The notes below the pieces were generated by a model. It had not been told where the DNA came from. It ran no database searches and saw nothing but the letters and a program-made list of their open reading frames with translations. A DNA stretch of 64,000 nucleotides from positions 62,001 through 126,000 of the forward strand of contig JAPPIK010000024.1 of assembly GCA_028820655.1 (NCBI GenBank), read 5' to 3'. This stretch comes from Candidatus Poribacteria bacterium (GTDB taxonomy: Bacteria; Poribacteria; WGA-4E; JAJDTR01). The position numbers and the translations under genes are program-made. Of this stretch, positions 4,808 through 14,056 are shown one piece after another; position 1 is the first letter of the stretch; each line of letters begins with the position of its first letter.

Positions 4808-5632
4808 ATGCCCGTTTTAAGCGCGAAAGACCGCGCCTTCTGGGAGGAACACGGTTACGTTACTGTTCATGACGCGGTTCCGCCGGAGAACACGAAAGCC
4901 GCCGAGGATGCGGTTTGGAACTTTCTTGAGATGGGTGCGGATGATAGGGAGAGTTGGTATCCCGACCCGCCGCGTTCCAGTATAATGGTGGAGATATACC
5001 AGCATCAGGCGCTATGGGACAATCGTCAATTCCCGCGCGTACATCAAGCGTTCGCAGAAATCTGGGGTACCGAGGAATTGTGGGTTAGCTTTGATCGGGC
5101 AAGTATGAGTCCGCCCAATCTCCCACCGAAATGGCATCGTACGGATGCCGGGCTGCATTGGGATAGAAACCCGTTTAATCCGCCGGCTAGATTGGGTGTT
5201 CAAGGCGTGCTGTATCTGACCGACACGGCAGCCAATCAGGGCGCATTCACCTGCGTACCCGGGTTCCAACACAAGATGGAGGCATGGCTGAAAACTCTCC
5301 CGAAGGATGCCGATCCGCGACAGCAGGATTTGGAGAGTTTGGGCGCCGAGCCGATTGCAGGTAAGGCGGGGGACCTGATAATCTGGCACAGCAGTTTGCC
5401 TCATGGGGCGGGGCCGAATTTTGCTAACCGACCTCGTGTCGCGCAGTATATCACCATGTTTCCCGCCGGTGAGGATAGTGAAGAAGCTCGCGGAAAACGG
5501 ATTGACGGGTGGCGAAACCGCGGGGCAGGGTTTAGCGGCGAGCGAGAGGAGAAGGAAAACACGGAGGGGAAGACCGCAAAACTCACGCCGTTGGGGAGAA
5601 AACTGCTGGGACTGGATAAGTGGAGGGGTTGA
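4808..5632 (+). CDS. Phytanoyl-CoA dioxygenase (PhyH) family protein
   Basis: A 274-aa Fe(II)/2-oxoglutarate-dependent oxygenase. The metal triad is complete: HWD at 117-119 (H117, D119) and distal H199 in SLPHGAG, with R210 positioned to bind 2-oxoglutarate. The start has a strong GAGGAGA ribosome site 7 nt upstream. The family hydroxylates varied small molecules, and the phytanoyl-CoA name says little about the substrate. It is monocistronic by appearance and is one of four PhyH genes in the window. Confidence 0.92.
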   Translation: MPVLSAKDRAFWEEHGYVTVHDAVPPENTKAAEDAVWNFLEMGADDRESWYPDPPRSSIMVEIYQHQALWDNRQFPRVHQAFAEIWGTEELWVSFDRASMSPPNLPPKWHRTDAGLHWDRNPFNPPARLGVQGVLYLTDTAANQGAFTCVPGFQHKMEAWLKTLPKDADPRQQDLESLGAEPIAGKAGDLIIWHSSLPHGAGPNFANRPRVAQYITMFPAGEDSEEARGKRIDGWRNRGAGFSGEREEKENTEGKTAKLTPLGRKLLGLDKWRG

Positions 5633-5828: not shown

Positions 5829-6911
5829 ATGAAAATTCACCTCGACTTAAATGGGCCGGATCCGATTTTAGGCAATGCATCCATTGCTCCGATTGAGTTT
5901 ACTACGGGCGGCTTCCATGTGGACTGGGAGACACTTGCGACGCTAAGGGAAGTTGAACCGCGAAGAAACTATCCAGTTTCAACGTTCCGTGGTTTTCTCC
6001 CGTCGGAGTCAGTTGCCGTGGGCGAATATTGGGAAATTGACGATGAATCCGCACTTCAGTTGCTGAAGCAACTCGCCGAGAATCCAAGTCTTCAACTGTG
6101 GGTTAATGAAGAAATTGGACGATGGGCAACACTTCGCGCCTACAGCGAAGATTACGCGGAGATTGTGTTCCGCATCCATGCCACGTTTGAGTTGACGGAT
6201 GGATTTTTCACGCCGTCGCAATTCGCCGGAAGCTTAGTTATTGACCGGCACCTGGAGGAATTGACATATTTTGAGATGTCTGTTCCGCAGAGCACGTTGA
6301 ACTTTGATGTCCATAAGGTAATCGATGAAAATCGCGCCCTCACCGACAGCGGTGTTTGCAAGATTGAGATGGCTGTCGGCGAAGAAATCACCCAAAATCT
6401 CACCTACACGGAAGAAATCTCCGCAGAAGAGGCTCGACTCGGACTTGCGAAGCAGTGTTATCCTGCGCAATCCATAGAGTGGGTAAAGTTGGAAGAAGCG
6501 GCTGAGACGGCAAAAGCGCTTGACCGTCCCATCCATGTTGTTTCGGCGGATGGCACCTTCATGGATCAGTCGTGCTGAGGGAGCGGAAAAAACCTGAGGG
6601 CAGGTGCTCTCGCCGACAAGAAGACGATTGCTTATTTGAACGCCAATTTTGTTAATCTCTGGGTGCTCAATCTCGACATCAAACGGCATCGCGATGCGAA
6701 AGGGATTGATAGCGTTTCACCTTTGGAGCGCGTCATCATTGGCGGTTGGAATGAAAAATCTCCGGTAGATTGCCAAGTGATTTCCAGCGAGTTGAAACTG
6801 CTAGGAAGCCTGCCGCTCAATGACTTCATTTTCGCCGATCACAGCGATGAAGCACAGGTCTATCGTGAATTTTTGAAGCGTTCGTTAGCGAAAATGCCGC
6901 CAGTTTTGTAG
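5829..6911 (+). CDS. SELENON (SEPN1)-like selenoprotein, copy 1, Sec250
   Basis: Read with UGA 6576-6578 as selenocysteine this is a 360-aa protein. Reading stops at a TAG at 6909-6911. The UGA lies in SCUGSGK (residues 248-254), the same SCUG redox motif as in animal selenoprotein N. The upstream half has FTPSQFAG (127-134) and EEARLGLAKQCYP, which also resemble SELENON. The region after the UGA is thioredoxin-like (YLNANFVNLWVLN). The downstream frame has no plausible ATG start and begins in frame right after the UGA, so a separate gene is unlikely. No signal peptide, membrane helix or EF-hand is visible, so a cytosolic redox enzyme is inferred. It is the first of four tandem copies. Confidence 0.9.
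6576..6611 (+). promoter_or_regulatory. Bacterial SECIS element and recoded UGA, copy 1
   Basis: After UGA 6576-6578 there is a 17-nt spacer. Then GAGGGC (6596-6601) pairs with GCTCTC (6606-6611), with one G-U pair, around the loop AGGT. A GGU apical loop about 25 nt behind the UGA is what SelB recognises in bacterial selenoprotein mRNAs such as fdhF. Confidence 0.78.
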
Positions 6912-6975
6912 GACTCGCGCAGAAATTCCGGAGATGTCAGTGTCAACTGATTGACGACTCTAAGTGGAGTAAAGG

Positions 6976-8058
6976 ATGAGGATTCAGCTTGAGTTGAATG
7001 GTCCGGCGTCGACATTAGTCAACGCATCAATTCGCCCAATTACGTTCACCACAGCCGGTTTTCATGTGGACTGGGAGTCGCTTGCTACGATGCGAGAGGT
7101 AGAACCGCAGAAAAGCTACGCCATCTCAACCTTTCGTGGTTTCCTTCCGCTGAAGGCAGTTGCTGTGGGCGAATATTGGGATATTGATCCTGAGACCGTG
7201 CTTGAGTTGCTAAATCAGTTCACTGAAAATCCGAGACTAGAGTCGTGGATTGGTGATGACGAAGGAAAATGGGCATCACTTCGCGCCTACAATGACGATC
7301 ATGCGGAGATTGTGTTTCGTATTCACGCTGTATTTGTGTGGAAGGATGGGTTTTTTACGCCATCACAATTTGCCGGAAGTCTGATTATCGACCGTCGCTT
7401 GGAGAAATTAGACTATTTTGAGATGTCCGTTCCACCGAGTACGCTGAATTTTGATGCCGGTAGGGAATTCGATGACGGTTTCTGGGCCGCAGAGAGTGGA
7501 TTTTGTAGAATTGAGATGACCGCCGGCAAAGAAGCTACTCAAGCGTTGGCTTACTCCGAAGAAATATCCATGGAGGAGGCGCGGCTGGGACTTGCGAGGC
7601 AGTTTTACCCCGCTCAATTCATCGAATGGGTGACGCTGGAAGAGGCAAAAGAGACGGCAATAGCGCTTGATCGTCCTATCCATGTTGTTTCGACGGATGG
7701 CACCTTCATGGATGAGTCGTGCTGAGGGAGCGGAAAAATCTTGAGGGCAGGTGCCCTCGCCGACAGGGAGACGATTTATTATTTGAACACCAATTTTGTC
7801 AATCTCTGGGTTCTCAATCTCGACCTCAAACGCCACCGTGATGCGAAAGGGATTGATGGCGTTTCGCCGTTGGAACGCGTAATCATTGGGGGTTGGAACA
7901 AGGATTCACCCGTAGATTTCCAAGTGATTTCCAGCGAGTTGAAACTGTTAGGGAGCATACCGCTCAATGATTTTCTTGACGAGAACGCTAACAACGAGGT
8001 TCATGGATATCGCAAATTCTTGAAGCATTCGTTGACGGAAACGCCTCCGGAATCGTAG
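6976..8058 (+). CDS. SELENON-like selenoprotein, copy 2, Sec250
   Basis: A 360-aa protein with UGA 7723-7725 read as selenocysteine 250 in ESCUGSGK. Domain order is as in copy 1: an N-terminal domain with FTTAGFHVDW, the FTPSQFAG motif, the EEARLGLARQFYP helix, then the thioredoxin-like segment with YLNTNFVNLWVLN and SPVDFQVISS. The start ATG follows GGAGTAAAGG. It lies 64 nt after copy 1 and is probably co-transcribed. Without recoding, translation would end at Cys249, directly before the redox Sec. Confidence 0.9.
7723..7758 (+). promoter_or_regulatory. Bacterial SECIS element and recoded UGA, copy 2
   Basis: UGA 7723-7725, a 17-nt spacer, then GAGGGC (7743-7748) and GCCCTC (7753-7758) form a perfect 6-bp stem around AGGT. 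This is the most stable of the four elements. Confidence 0.8.
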
Positions 8059-8120
8059 GACTAATGCTGAATACCGGAGACAGCAGTGCCAACCAATCAA
8101 AAACCTCGGCGGAGAATAGA

Positions 8121-9203
8121 ATGAAAATCCAGCTAGAGTTAAATGGTCCCGATCCGGTTGCCGTTAACGCATCAATTCCCCCAATCACGTTTACTACAGC
8201 CGGTTATCATGTCCGCTGGAAATCGCTTTCGACGCTGAGAGAGGTCGAAGCACGTAGAAACTATCCCGCCTCAACGTTTCGAGGCTTCCTTCCACGGACG
8301 GCGGTTTCTATAGGTGAACACTGGAAAATTGACCCCGAATCCGCGCTTCAGTTACTGAAGCAACTCGCTGAAGAGCCGCAACTGGAACTGTGGAATGATG
8401 ATGGAGGAGGGCAGTGGGCATCGCTTCGGGCGTACAACGACAATTATGCGGAGATTGTATTCCGCATCCATACAGTGTTTATGTTCAAGGATGGGAGGTT
8501 TACCCCCTCTCAACTTGCCGGAACGCTGATTATTGACCGGCGCTTGGAGGAGTTGATATATTTTGAGATGTCCGTTCCACCGGGCACGCTTAACTTTGAT
8601 GCCGCCTGGAAATGGGATGACGAACTCACCGTCACCGAATGCGGCGTTTGCCAGATCGAGATGACTGCCGGCGAAAGAGCCGCCCAAGAATTGACCTACG
8701 CGGAAGAAATCTCTTTAGAGGAGGCGCGGCTGGGACTCTCGAGACAGTTTTACCCCGCCCAATCCATTGAATGGGTAAAGCTGGAGGAAGCGCCGGAGAT
8801 GGCTAAGTTGCTTGACCGTCCCATCCATGTTGTGTCGGCGGATGGCGCCCTCATGGATGAGTCGTGCTGAGGTAGCGGAAAAATCTTGAGGGCAGGTGTC
8901 CTCGGCGATAAAGCAACGATTGATTATTTAAACGCCACCTTCGTCAATCTCTATGTACAAAATCTCGACCTCAAACGGCGCCGCGATGCGAAAGGGATTG
9001 ACGGCGTTTCGCCGTTGGAACGCGTTATTATCGGGGGTTGGAACGAGGATTCACCCGTAGATTGCCAAGTGATTTCCAGCGAGTTGAAACTGCTAGGGAG
9101 CCTACCGCTGAATGATTTTCTTGGTGCGTTTAGTCCCACCAGGCCACAAGACTATCGCGATTATTTGAGACGTTCGTTGGCGGAAGCGTCTCCGGAATTG
9201 TAG
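8121..9203 (+). CDS. SELENON-like selenoprotein, copy 3, Sec250
   Basis: A 360-aa protein with UGA 8868-8870 as selenocysteine 250 in ESCUGSGK. The frame is open from 8064, but the ATG at 8121 is preceded by GGAG and aligns with the starts of the other copies. FTPSQLAG and EEARLGLSRQFYP replace the matching motifs of copies 1 and 2. The C-terminal part ends in YRDYLRRSLAEASPEL. It is 62 nt behind copy 2. Confidence 0.9.
8868..8903 (+). promoter_or_regulatory. Bacterial SECIS element and recoded UGA, copy 3
   Basis: UGA 8868-8870, a 17-nt spacer, GAGGGC (8888-8893), loop AGGT and GTCCTC (8898-8903). The C-to-T change relative to copy 2 turns one G-C pair into G-U, so the stem is kept although the encoded residue changes from Ala to Val. 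Confidence 0.78.
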
Positions 9204-9273
9204 GAGTTATGCTGAAAACTGGAGACATCTGTGCCAACTAATCAAAAACCTCAGCGGAGAAGCGGAGAAAAGG

Positions 9274-10353
9274 ATGAAGATGCAGCTTGAGTTAAATGGC
9301 CCGGAACCGATTGTCGTCAACGCATCTATTCCCCCAATCACGTTTACTACAGCCGGCTTTCATGTGGACTGGGAGCCGCTCGCGACGTTGAGAGAGGTCG
9401 AAGCACGTAGAAACTATCCCGCCTCAACGTTTCGAGGCTTCCTCCCGCGGACGTCGGTCTCTATTGGCGAGTTCTGGAAAATTGATTCCGAATCCGCACT
9501 CCAGCTACTAATGCAACTCGGCGAAGAACCGCAGTTGGAATTACAGAATGATGAAGGCGGGCAGTGGGCATGCCTTCGCGCCCAAAACGACGTCTACGCT
9601 GAGGTTGTGTTCCGCATACATACGGAATTTGCGTTCAAGGATGGGATGTTTACACCTTCTCAACTTGCCGGAACCCTGATTATTGACCGGCACCAGCAGG
9701 AGTTAGCTTATTTTGAGATGTCCGTTCCACCGAGCACGCTGAACTTTAATGCCCACAGGGTATTTGATGACGAACTCACTCTCACCGAGTGTGGTGTTTG
9801 CCAGATTAAGATGACCGCCGGCGAAAGAGTCGCCCAGGAATTGACCTACGCGGAAGAAATCGCTATCGAGGAGGCGCGGCTGGGACTCGCAAGACGGTTT
9901 TACCCGGCGCAATTCATCGAATGGGTGACGATGGAAGAAGCGCCGGAGATGGCAACGTTGCTTGACCGTCCCATCCATGTTGTTTCGGCGGACGGCACTT
10001 TCATGGATGAGTCTTGCTGAGGGAGCGGCAAATTTTTGAGGGCAGTTGTCCTCGGCGATGACGACACGATTGGCTATTTAAACGCCAATTTTGTCAATCT
10101 CTGGGTGCTTAACCTCGACCTCAAACGACGCCGCGATGCGAAAGGGATTGACGACGTTTCGCCGTTGGAGCGCGCCATCATTGGAGGTTGGAATGAGAAA
10201 TCGCCGGTAGATTGCCAAGTGATATCGAACGAGTTGAAACTGCTCGGAAGCCTACCGCTCAATGACTTTAGTGATGTGCATAGCCGCACTAAAGCACAAG
10301 ACTATCGTGATTATTTGAGTCGTTCGATAGCGGTAACCTCCCACAAAGCGTAG
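9274..10353 (+). CDS. SELENON-like selenoprotein, copy 4, Sec249
   Basis: A 359-aa protein with UGA 10018-10020 as selenocysteine 249 in ESCUGSGK; it is one residue shorter than the others in the linker near residue 90. The start ATG follows GGAGAAAAGG. Motifs are FTPSQLAG, EEARLGLARRFYP and YLNANFVNLWVLN. It closes the array and is followed by about 140 nt of gene-free DNA before a convergent aldo/keto reductase gene. Differences between copies lie mostly outside the Sec motif, consistent with selection to keep the redox site. Confidence 0.9.
10018..10053 (+). promoter_or_regulatory. Bacterial SECIS element and recoded UGA, copy 4
   Basis: UGA 10018-10020, a 17-nt spacer, GAGGGC (10038-10043), loop AGTT and GTCCTC (10048-10053). 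The loop is AGTT rather than AGGT, so this is the weakest match to a GGU loop; the stem is intact with one G-U pair. Confidence 0.7.
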
Positions 10354-10494: not shown

Positions 10495-11538
10495 TTAATT
10501 CTCAGAGAGGGGTAGCCGCGCCTGCGCGCCAACAAGCGATAAGTCTCTGAATTCGGCCCAGAAATCATTAGGGATCTTTTCCTCAAAGAAGGCAACGTTG
10601 GCTCCAATTTCGGCGGCTGATCGAGCGCCCGGAATCACCGAGGCAATACTGGGGTGACCGAACGGAAATTGTAGAGCCGCCGCTTGCAACGATACGTCGT
10701 GACGAGCGCACACCTCCTGTATTCGGCGGGTGCGATCAAGAACATCGGGAGTGGCAGGAAGGTAGTTGTAGTAAGCGCCCTCCACGGCGCCGGTGGCGAG
10801 AATTCCGGAGTTGTACGGTCCACCGATGATGACGCGAATGCCTTTTTCCTCGCAACGCGGCAGGAACTTGAGAGCCGGTTCCTGCTCAAGCAGAGTGTAG
10901 CGTCCCGCCAACAGGAAACAATCGAAGTCGCCTTCGGCGGCAAAATCGTACAACATCTGCCATTGGTTCATTGCCGCCCCTATGGCTTTCACCACTTTCT
11001 GAGTGCGAAGTTCGTCAATCGCCGGATAAACCTGATCCATCGCCCGCGAGAAATGGCTGACGGTATACGGGTCGTGAAAGTCCGGTTGAATGCTAATTCC
11101 TTCGTCGGGGTCGTGGATAAACAGGATGTCGATGTATTCGGTTTGAAGGCGTTTGAGACTCTCTTCAAAAGAACGTAGGACCGCATCACGAGAGAAATCG
11201 AAGGTTTTGTCGAGCGGCGGTACGTCCACGAACGGCGATTCGGGCGGTTCTTCTTCGGTACGCGGCACGAGTGAGTAACCGACCTTGGTAGAAATCGCCA
11301 ATTCATTCCGATTGTATCGCGATAGTGCCGCCCCCAATCGATTCTCGCTGCGACCGTAGCCGTAGAGCGGAGCGGTATCGAAGTAGCGGATGCCCGCCGC
11401 ATAAGCGCCGGCTATCGTTTCTGCGGCGCCATCCTCCTCCACAACCTCGTACAGGTTCCCGAGTGCGGCGCCGCCCATCCCCATCTTTGTGACTTCAAGA
11501 CCGTAACGTCCAATTTTCTGCCTCTTGTCACGTTTCAT
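10495..11538 (-). CDS. Aldo/keto reductase
   Basis: A 347-aa TIM-barrel NAD(P)H oxidoreductase. The catalytic tetrad is visible as D54 (FDTAPLYG), Y59, K85 (STKVGY) and H142 (FIHDPD). The reading frame is open far upstream, but that part shadows the transporter gene; the ATG at 11538 has an AGGAGGG site and lies 11 nt after the transporter stop. It resembles the L-fucose or galactose dehydrogenase-like branch of the superfamily; the substrate is not certain. It is likely co-transcribed with the transporter. Confidence 0.92.
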   Translation of the reverse strand: MKRDKRQKIGRYGLEVTKMGMGGAALGNLYEVVEEDGAAETIAGAYAAGIRYFDTAPLYGYGRSENRLGAALSRYNRNELAISTKVGYSLVPRTEEEPPESPFVDVPPLDKTFDFSRDAVLRSFEESLKRLQTEYIDILFIHDPDEGISIQPDFHDPYTVSHFSRAMDQVYPAIDELRTQKVVKAIGAAMNQWQMLYDFAAEGDFDCFLLAGRYTLLEQEPALKFLPRCEEKGIRVIIGGPYNSGILATGAVEGAYYNYLPATPDVLDRTRRIQEVCARHDVSLQAAALQFPFGHPSIASVIPGARSAAEIGANVAFFEEKIPNDFWAEFRDLSLVGAQARLPLSEN

Positions 11539-11549
11539 CAAAAGCCCTC

Positions 11550-12980
11550 CTATCCGCCGATCAACCGTCCGATTTCCCAAACAATGCATGAAACGGCGAA
11601 TCCGACATAAACCAGCGACGCGAGAATCATCATCGTGGTGCACACTCCGCCCGGCCTGGCAAACTTGGGCAAGAACCGGCGATTGATGTACAACGTCAGC
11701 GGGACATAGAGCGCCATCGCGAATCCTCCCATGTAGGCGGCGTTGAAAAGGAAACCCAATTCGCTGACGCCCATCTGCTCCATGACGAAGGTGATGAGGC
11801 AGCCGGCGATGATCCAAATGCCCGCTATCAGCATATACCACCAACTCAACGCCCGTTTCTGCGCGCCCTTGAAGTTCGTGTACACGATGTCGGAAACCGA
11901 ACGCGAGACGCCGTCAACCAAGGCGAGTTGGGTGCTGAAAAGCGTTGCCACCCCGACCAGCAAGAATATTGTACGTCCGGGCCCGCCCCACACTTCGGCG
12001 AGCACCTGCGCCTCGTCCCAGATCAACGTTCCCTTTTCGGGTACAATCCCCTTGGGATGCAATACGGCAAGGGCGCCAAAGATAAAGAGCATCATAGTCA
12101 CGGTGTTTAACGCCCAAAAGAAGAGAAGCTGATCCTTCTTCACGTAGTTCCACCATTCCCTAAAGCGCGAGCGGTTTTCTTCGGAATCCTCGATGATAAA
12201 TCCGGTGGACGGGACTGTTTCGGTCCGACCCCGTAGCGGATTCTGCAACTGTGGAAGACGCCCGCCCATCCCGATGTTCTTGTCGCGCAGGTAGAATGTG
12301 TAGAACAGATTGGCTGTGCCGCCCGCGCCGGCAAAGACGAGCGCGATGAAGAGCGTTTTTACCGACATCCTCGGATCTTTATATCCTACATTGACCAATC
12401 CGCTCCCCAATTCTTTCCACGTGTCGGCGGAGCCTATGGCGATCACTACGGCAATCAAACCGATGGTTACAATCGCCACGAGCACTTCAATGGTTTTCTC
12501 GACGGAGTTGTAGATAAGTTTGGGGCCGAACAGAATGAGCGTCACCGCGCCGAATGTAACCACCGTCCAGAACGTGTCGGAACCCCAACCCCCGGGACCG
12601 ATGAGCAGCGCTTTGAGTGCAAGCCCCGACGCACGCGCCCAACCGGGCGCAATCCAACTCACCAACGTCAGAAGAATGAACAGCGGCGCAAACCCGCGCC
12701 ACACACGGCTATAACCGGTGTACACGGTTTCGCCCGTCGCGATGGTCCACCGCGCAACCTCAAAATTTACCCACAACTGAATGAAAATCCCGACCACTGC
12801 CGCCCAAACCATGCTTCCGCCGTATTCCGCGGCTATTCTGGGCCAGATTACAATCTCGCCCGCACCGATGGAGAGACCGACCAGTATCGCGCCGGGACCG
12901 GCAATCTTCCAAAACGGAAGCGTCTTCTGCGGCAACTCCGCAGTCTTGAGGTCGTCAAGCGGTTCATAGATTTTGCTCAT
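11550..12980 (-). CDS. Nramp-related transporter with atypical motifs
   Basis: A 476-aa integral membrane protein with about 11-12 hydrophobic segments and an Nramp-like N-terminus (WKIAGPGAILVGLSIGAGE). Classical Nramp metal transporters have DPGN in helix 1 and an MPH motif in helix 6; here helix 1 has GAGE (39-42) and the helix 6 region reads AGAGGTANLFYTFYLRD. Divalent-metal transport therefore cannot be assumed. The ATG at 12995 is in frame, but its codons ATGGAGGAG contain the ribosome site for the ATG at 12980, which I prefer. Confidence 0.85.
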   Translation of the reverse strand: MSKIYEPLDDLKTAELPQKTLPFWKIAGPGAILVGLSIGAGEIVIWPRIAAEYGGSMVWAAVVGIFIQLWVNFEVARWTIATGETVYTGYSRVWRGFAPLFILLTLVSWIAPGWARASGLALKALLIGPGGWGSDTFWTVVTFGAVTLILFGPKLIYNSVEKTIEVLVAIVTIGLIAVVIAIGSADTWKELGSGLVNVGYKDPRMSVKTLFIALVFAGAGGTANLFYTFYLRDKNIGMGGRLPQLQNPLRGRTETVPSTGFIIEDSEENRSRFREWWNYVKKDQLLFFWALNTVTMMLFIFGALAVLHPKGIVPEKGTLIWDEAQVLAEVWGGPGRTIFLLVGVATLFSTQLALVDGVSRSVSDIVYTNFKGAQKRALSWWYMLIAGIWIIAGCLITFVMEQMGVSELGFLFNAAYMGGFAMALYVPLTLYINRRFLPKFARPGGVCTTMMILASLVYVGFAVSCIVWEIGRLIGG

Positions 12981-14056
12981 ACACTTCTCCTCCAAAATCT
13001 AGGTTGTATTGACATATGAAAATTGAACCAATATTGATTCACTCGAGGCAGAATGTTGGGCAATCACGATGGTTGCCCCTACAGTGGGTCAATGCCCGTA
13101 GGCGTTGGGTTTCCAAACACGTTGGGCAAGGTAGGATTTCTACCGCGTTCGCTATTCACTCACTTGCTGGATCTCTATGGGATTTCTATCGCGCTCGCTA
13201 TTCACTTCCTTGATCACTCTCAAGTAACACTCGACATTGCACTCCTCTGGAGTGCAGACGCGAGGAGTAATCGTGTACTATTGACATTTCACTCCGCTGG
13301 AGTGAAAACCAGACCACGAAGGAACACTTTTACGGCCAGTCATAGAGCGAAAAATGAATGTGTCCCGCTGATGGATTGTGATCGCAAACTAACAGTTTGC
13401 GGTACAAATATGTTACTTGCTGAAAGAATTATTCCGACAGGGATAATGGCGCGCTCTCAAGAAACACTCGACATTTCACTCCGCTGGAGTGCAGACGCGA
13501 GGAGTAAACGTGTACTATTGACATTGCACTCCGCTGGAGTGAAAACCAGACCACGAAGGAACACTTTTACGGCCAGTCATAGAGCGAAAAATGAATGTGT
13601 CCCGCTGATGGATTGTGATCGCAAACTAACAGTTTGCGGTACAAATATGTTACTTGCTGAAAGAATTATTCCGACAGGGATAATGGCGCGCTCTCAAGAA
13701 ACACTCGACATTGCCGGGATCTCTATCGCGGTCGCTATCCACTCCCTTGATCCGCTGGAGTGCGGTGGTTGGACGCATCGCGATTCTATTGACATTTCAC
13801 TCCGCCGGAGTGAAAGCACTCTACGAAAGAACGCTCGTTCAAAACCTGCCATAGAGCGAAAAACGAGTGTGACTTGCTGAAAGAATAATTCCGACGGGGA
13901 TAATGGTACGCTCCTACGATAGTTACTTATCGGCGAAATATGGACACGCCTCGCATAAATGTCTACACGCCACAACCTCTCTGTAATAGCAGTGCGCCAA
14001 TGCGGTCAATCAAATCTATCGAAGGCGGGGGAACGGATTTCGATCGTTCTCGCTAT
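12981..14056. repeat. Gene-free repeat-rich region
   Basis: About 1.1 kb without a credible gene. Besides the 237-bp tandem repeat it has copies of the CTATCGC-GCTCGCTATTCACTC family at about 13135-13215 and 13717-13752, hairpins of the type CACTCCGCTGGAGTG, and AACAGTTTGCGGTACA hairpins near 13385 and 13622. An open frame at 13053-13880 exists only because the repeat has a length divisible by three. Confidence 0.85.
13217..13690. repeat. Two tandem copies of a 237-bp repeat
   Basis: 13217-13453 and 13454-13690 are near-identical direct copies, starting CTCTCAAG and ending ATGGCGCG or its equivalent. A third, broken copy starts at 13691 and reappears in pieces to about 13910. Each unit contains the CACTCCGCTGGAGTG hairpin and a GCAAACTAACAGTTTGC hairpin. 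It lacks the short unit and spacer structure of CRISPR. Confidence 0.88.

Follow-up and report, generated by a model that had tools for sequence, protein, structure and literature searches.

In the present study, four tandem SELENON-family selenoprotein genes were found to fill positions 5829-10353, all on the same strand, of a 64,000-nucleotide stretch of a Candidatus Poribacteria genome (hereafter, the window). Taken as a whole, the evidence makes it very probable that these genes are four SELENON-homologous paralogues in which a SECIS element guides selenocysteine (Sec) to an in-frame UGA, and that their products would act as Cys-Sec oxidoreductases.

Results

Reading TGA as a residue opened four co-directional frames of 359-360 codons, each with one internal TGA at codon 249/250 in the context (Q/E)SCUGSGK. 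In each copy the stretch after the UGA runs for 110 codons to a TAG, and the only internal Met in these four stretches lies in copy 1, six codons before the end. The first-pass annotation had described four pairs of frames, each split by a single in-frame UGA in SC-UGA-GSGK, with long downstream frames lacking an ATG start, and both descriptions are borne out. The features of the array are as follows.

5829..6911, + strand: copy 1, SELENON-family selenoprotein gene, 360 aa, Sec250 (open with TGA=U; dN/dS; BLAST E 1.5e-18 against the human SELENON query described below)
6576..6578, + strand: Sec UGA codon of copy 1
6596..6611, + strand: SECIS apical hairpin of copy 1, GAGGGC-AGGT-GCTCTC
6912..6975, + strand: spacer between copies 1 and 2, 64 nt, with a purine-rich Shine-Dalgarno-like end
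6976..8058, + strand: copy 2, SELENON-family selenoprotein gene, 360 aa, Sec250, modelled with AlphaFold2 (open frame; dN/dS)
7723..7725, + strand: Sec UGA codon of copy 2
7743..7758, + strand: SECIS apical hairpin of copy 2, GAGGGC-AGGT-GCCCTC
8121..9203, + strand: copy 3, SELENON-family selenoprotein gene, 360 aa, Sec250 (open frame; dN/dS)
8868..8870, + strand: Sec UGA codon of copy 3
8888..8903, + strand: SECIS apical hairpin of copy 3, GAGGGC-AGGT-GTCCTC
9274..10353, + strand: copy 4, SELENON-family selenoprotein gene, 359 aa, Sec249 (open frame; dN/dS)
10018..10020, + strand: Sec UGA codon of copy 4
10038..10053, + strand: SECIS apical hairpin of copy 4, GAGGGC-AGTT-GTCCTC

For copy 3, an alternative in-frame ATG at 8064 is the less likely start, judging from the alignment with the other copies. 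The remaining two spacers measure 62 and 70 nt, and a purine-rich Shine-Dalgarno-like stretch precedes the ATG of every copy. Spacer sizes of 62-70 nt are consistent with a single operon; promoter and terminator scans of the array gave nothing above chance. The array is flanked by a PhyH-type dioxygenase gene upstream (4808-5632) and by an aldo/keto reductase gene downstream on the opposite strand (10495-11550). Elsewhere in the window, a 237-bp unit is repeated 2.1 times with 97% identity (13217-13714).

The four copies are well separated from one another, with a protein identity of 67-73%, such that about 30% of the residues differ, and a dS of approximately 0.5-1.1. In the tree, the array forms a clade of its own with 100/99 support. 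The same locus in the related genome G013 holds three copies behind collinear upstream DNA (85% identity), and these copies correspond as orthologues, in the same order, to window copies 1, 3 and 4, the pairing of copy 3 being modestly supported. The orthologues in G013 indicate that the array is older than the split of the two species, and this age speaks against a recent dosage amplification; the results fit old, diversified paralogues. Thus, the amplification by dosage selection proposed in the first-pass annotation is not supported. Retention of the copies for the dosage of a single activity also appears unlikely: equal length, equal motif and the tandem, operon-like order speak for it, but the old divergence, the level of identity and the orthologous copies in the sister genome argue against it.

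The likeness to SELENON was assessed with a human query (590 aa) that did not come from a database but that agrees with the published variant positions R5, Q8, R27, H52, S78, R291, U462 and R466 (PMC8967691). Against this query, the family profile scored 187 bits, with an E value of 4e-56 in a set that contained 2000 shuffles, and this comparison, of the kind suggested in the first-pass annotation, upholds the likeness claimed there. By BLAST against the same query, the window copies gave E values of 7e-15 to 1.5e-18, and class II members showed 28-31% identity over approximately 350-370 residues (E 1e-42 to 2e-34), as in L144, with 30% over 355 aa (E 1e-42). These sequence comparisons support the homology of the family to animal SELENON. 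Common to both are a two-part core (human residues ~152-537), the (S)CUG motif followed by SG(K/R)xLR, and the motifs FxPxQFxG and FRIHAEF; SCUGSGK is present in 4/4 window copies. A fifth copy in the genome of the window (L145; G000:C22:9683-10783, minus strand) belongs to the more SELENON-like class II and reads ILLWGALDDESCUANGK.

Several differences from SELENON were also observed. The bacterial family lacks the EF-hand region, the alignment beginning after it; no PS00018-like match was found in the window copies, and since this pattern also missed human SELENON, the alignment limits are the basis for this statement. The four window copies lack the ER membrane anchor, the bacterial genes are multi-copy, and their SECIS is bacterial and in-frame. 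The longest bacterial relatives add C-terminal beta-sandwich domains that SELENON does not have. Many longer relatives (A6 members, e.g. L129:5090-5572) carry one or two of these domains, which belong to no Pfam family and whose predicted fold resembles binding modules of the collagen-binding (PPC-like), CBM6 and GOLD types.

An AlphaFold2 model of copy 2, built from 57 family members, reached a pLDDT of 92.7. In the predicted architecture, the N-terminal domain is rich in beta structure and has no known relative, and the C-terminal domain is thioredoxin-like, of the DsbH/AGR type. The top Foldseek matches, DsbH and AGR2/AGR3, were weak and covered the C-terminal half only (TM-score to the query 0.24), and the N-terminal beta domain gave no Foldseek match. 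Searches of Pfam, NCBIfam and PDB sequences returned no match for the family above cut-off; Thioredox_DsbH (PF03190) scored 15.7 bits with the relative L050, against a gathering cut-off of 27, and left the window copies unmatched. The predicted fold of the C-terminal domain is shared with Thioredox_DsbH and AGR2-AGR3. DsbH and AGR2-AGR3 thioredoxin-fold proteins carry CxxC or CxxS, whereas the present family has C-U-x-x-G together with the N-terminal beta domain. It is improbable that the genes encode a Sec-containing thioredoxin or DsbH-like protein whose likeness to SELENON is confined to the surroundings of SCUG. Although the thioredoxin-like C-terminal domain and the weak DsbH matches (Pfam E 0.015 and E 0.045, plus Foldseek) point in this direction, the similarity to SELENON extends over approximately 355-370 residues and includes the N-terminal domain (FRIHAEF, FTPSQF/FSPAQF, P.MEL), which DsbH does not possess.

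With regard to the UGA codon, the pairwise dN/dS among the four copies is approximately 0.18-0.25 before the UGA and 0.17-0.44 past the SECIS stretch, and the similar values on both sides indicate that the downstream part is translated. Across the family, among the distinct full-length copies read, the site is UGA in 174/175, Ser in 1 and Cys in 0. A hairpin with a 6-bp stem occupies UGA+20 to +35 (the U of UGA being 0). In 64 diverse copies, 97.1% of the cells are paired, with 9 double changes, a result matched by 0/500 shuffles; RNAalifold recovers the identical helix unaided, and the basal G-C is swapped for U-A and C-G in two copies. Synonymous codon choice is frozen inside the hairpin and free beyond it: Arg+7 is AGG/AGA in 161/161 copies (against a 29% share of AGR among Arg codons), Leu+11 is CTC in 154/161 (against 19%), Ala+8 is GCA, and Gly+9 is GGT in 102/103. 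The published bSECIS rules specify a loop of 3-9 nt with G in the first two positions, a stem of 4-16 bp, a spacing of 16-37 nt and an MFE of at most -7.5, and all four window hairpins pass them, with the loop AGGU/AGUU, a 6-bp stem, a spacing of 23 nt and an MFE of -9.9 to -13.6.

The first-pass annotation had also proposed searching the same genome for selA, selB, selD and selC, and all four are present: selB and selA adjoin the tRNA-Sec gene (selC; Rfam 76.6 bits), and selD lies at G000:C22:246651-247577. Among 85 Poribacteria genomes, selB, selA and selD exceeded the curated cut-off in 76/85, 72/85 and 76/85, respectively. An in-frame TGA marks the selD of Poribacteria as a selenoprotein gene in its own right. 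The SECIS together with selA, selB, selC and selD supports decoding of the four UGAs as Sec, and the earlier claim of Sec-dependence stands. Insertion of another amino acid, by an altered code or a suppressor, would likewise leave the frame open through the UGA, but many other genes in the window stop at UGA, the Sec machinery of the genome is complete, the hairpins conform to the SECIS rules and the selD of the phylum has an in-frame UGA too, so that this reading is very remote. Equally hard to credit is a true stop, by which each pair would be two distinct genes, or a truncated gene whose 3' remnant is decaying: of the other long ORFs in the window that do not overlap, UGA closes 11/29 and is therefore a normal stop there, but the sequence past the UGA has no starts, is held by the same purifying selection as the part before it, is conserved throughout the phylum (A3) and contains a covarying hairpin at fixed spacing, and a nonsense mutation in the same codon of 174/175 copies is not credible.

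Sec has been lost naturally in one variant, a full-length copy within a tandem array (L042:9904-11025), which contains no TGA and carries Ser where the other copies have Sec (EACSESGK). Given the conservation of this copy, some family members may still be active without Sec.

Discussion

Herein, we propose a mechanism for the Sec-containing paralogues. First, SelB would bring Sec to the UGA. Second, Sec would replace the nucleophilic first Cys of the thioredoxin WCxxC motif; in alignments with single-domain WCGWC/WCxxC thioredoxins, Sec falls on this Cys and the preceding Cys falls on Trp, which suggests that the redox pair is likely the vicinal Cys249-Sec250. Third, the resolving partner of Sec would be the preceding Cys, not a downstream Cys, resulting in a vicinal Cys-Sec pair. 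The protein would then act in the cytosol as an oxidoreductase on thiols and disulfides (or on peroxides), and its N-terminal domain might set a partner specificity that differs between paralogues. As regards function, an oxidoreductase of thioredoxin fold that works through a vicinal Cys-Sec pair is the likeliest. The vicinal Cys-Sec of SELENON has been compared with the GCUG of thioredoxin reductase (PMC12839072). The C-terminus of the mammalian reductase has such a pair in common with the present family, but the fold and the position are different, and the flavin domain is absent in the family. The cytosolic location claimed in the first-pass annotation is likely for the four window copies because they have no hydrophobic segment (maximum 19-residue hydropathy 0.8-1.2). 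Certain relatives start with signal or lipobox-like N-termini.

One published account describes Poribacteria as largely sponge-associated (PMC3909097). In the present study, the family was present in 65/85 Poribacteria genomes, with 1 to 18 matches each. In eight genomes that were fully scored, with split genes joined, the copy number rises to approximately 15 per genome (G071, G081) and the largest array has eight copies (G071:C38:59750-72183), so that an array of four is not as unusual as first thought. In a scan of a genome collection, the best 80 of 182 relatives belonged to Candidatus Poribacteria, a count that, taken alone, leaves room for members in other phyla. Outside the phylum, no convincing relative was observed in 302 genomes and in another sample of 386 that shares some genomes with the first, where only weak thioredoxin-type matches appeared; the ones inspected, in G241, G399, G460 and G514, were rejected as single-domain thioredoxins with WCGWC/WCGYC, and a further match lay in G379 (E 5.5e-5). 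No family match was found among the viral contigs, plasmids and viral structures searched.

Poribacteria are major symbionts of sponges. Tentatively, SELENON might have been exchanged between Poribacteria and early animals, the animal gene descending from a class II-like poribacterial selenoprotein or the transfer running the other way, with the Sec codon retained across a full change of SECIS type. This reading, which we consider possible and somewhat less than an even prospect, fits a distribution that covers Poribacteria, lacks a convincing match in more than 300 other sampled genomes and, according to the literature, includes animals. SELENON orthologues are limited to vertebrates and some invertebrates in one review (PMC12839072), and SelN is counted among the animal additions in another report (PMC7016017). 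In a tree that included the human SELENON query, the human sequence lay on a long branch, without placement.

Among the 119 families of prokaryotic selenoproteins catalogued in 2026, none is SELENON-like, and the bacterial selenoproteins of that catalogue have a UGA and a bSECIS within the coding sequence and a Trx-like redox fold, as in the present family (PMC13188914). A literature search, with preprints and most subscription journals outside its range, found no paper joining Poribacteria with selenoproteins or SEPN1. Poribacterial SelN has reportedly been mentioned before, and a prior description is possible.

Defects in SELENON lead to congenital myopathy, and the biochemical reaction of this protein is poorly defined. 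The present family offers an equivalent of this human protein in a simpler, bacterial form, and with soluble homologues lacking the anchor and the EF-hand, the Cys-Sec core could be studied alone. Moreover, up to approximately 15 paralogues per genome, nearly all with Sec and none in a Cys form, are unusual and offer a test of the reason for Sec retention. With no Pfam or NCBIfam model for the family, standard annotation likely cuts these genes at the UGA. One class II copy, at G072:C107:18902-19996, carries two in-frame TGA codons.
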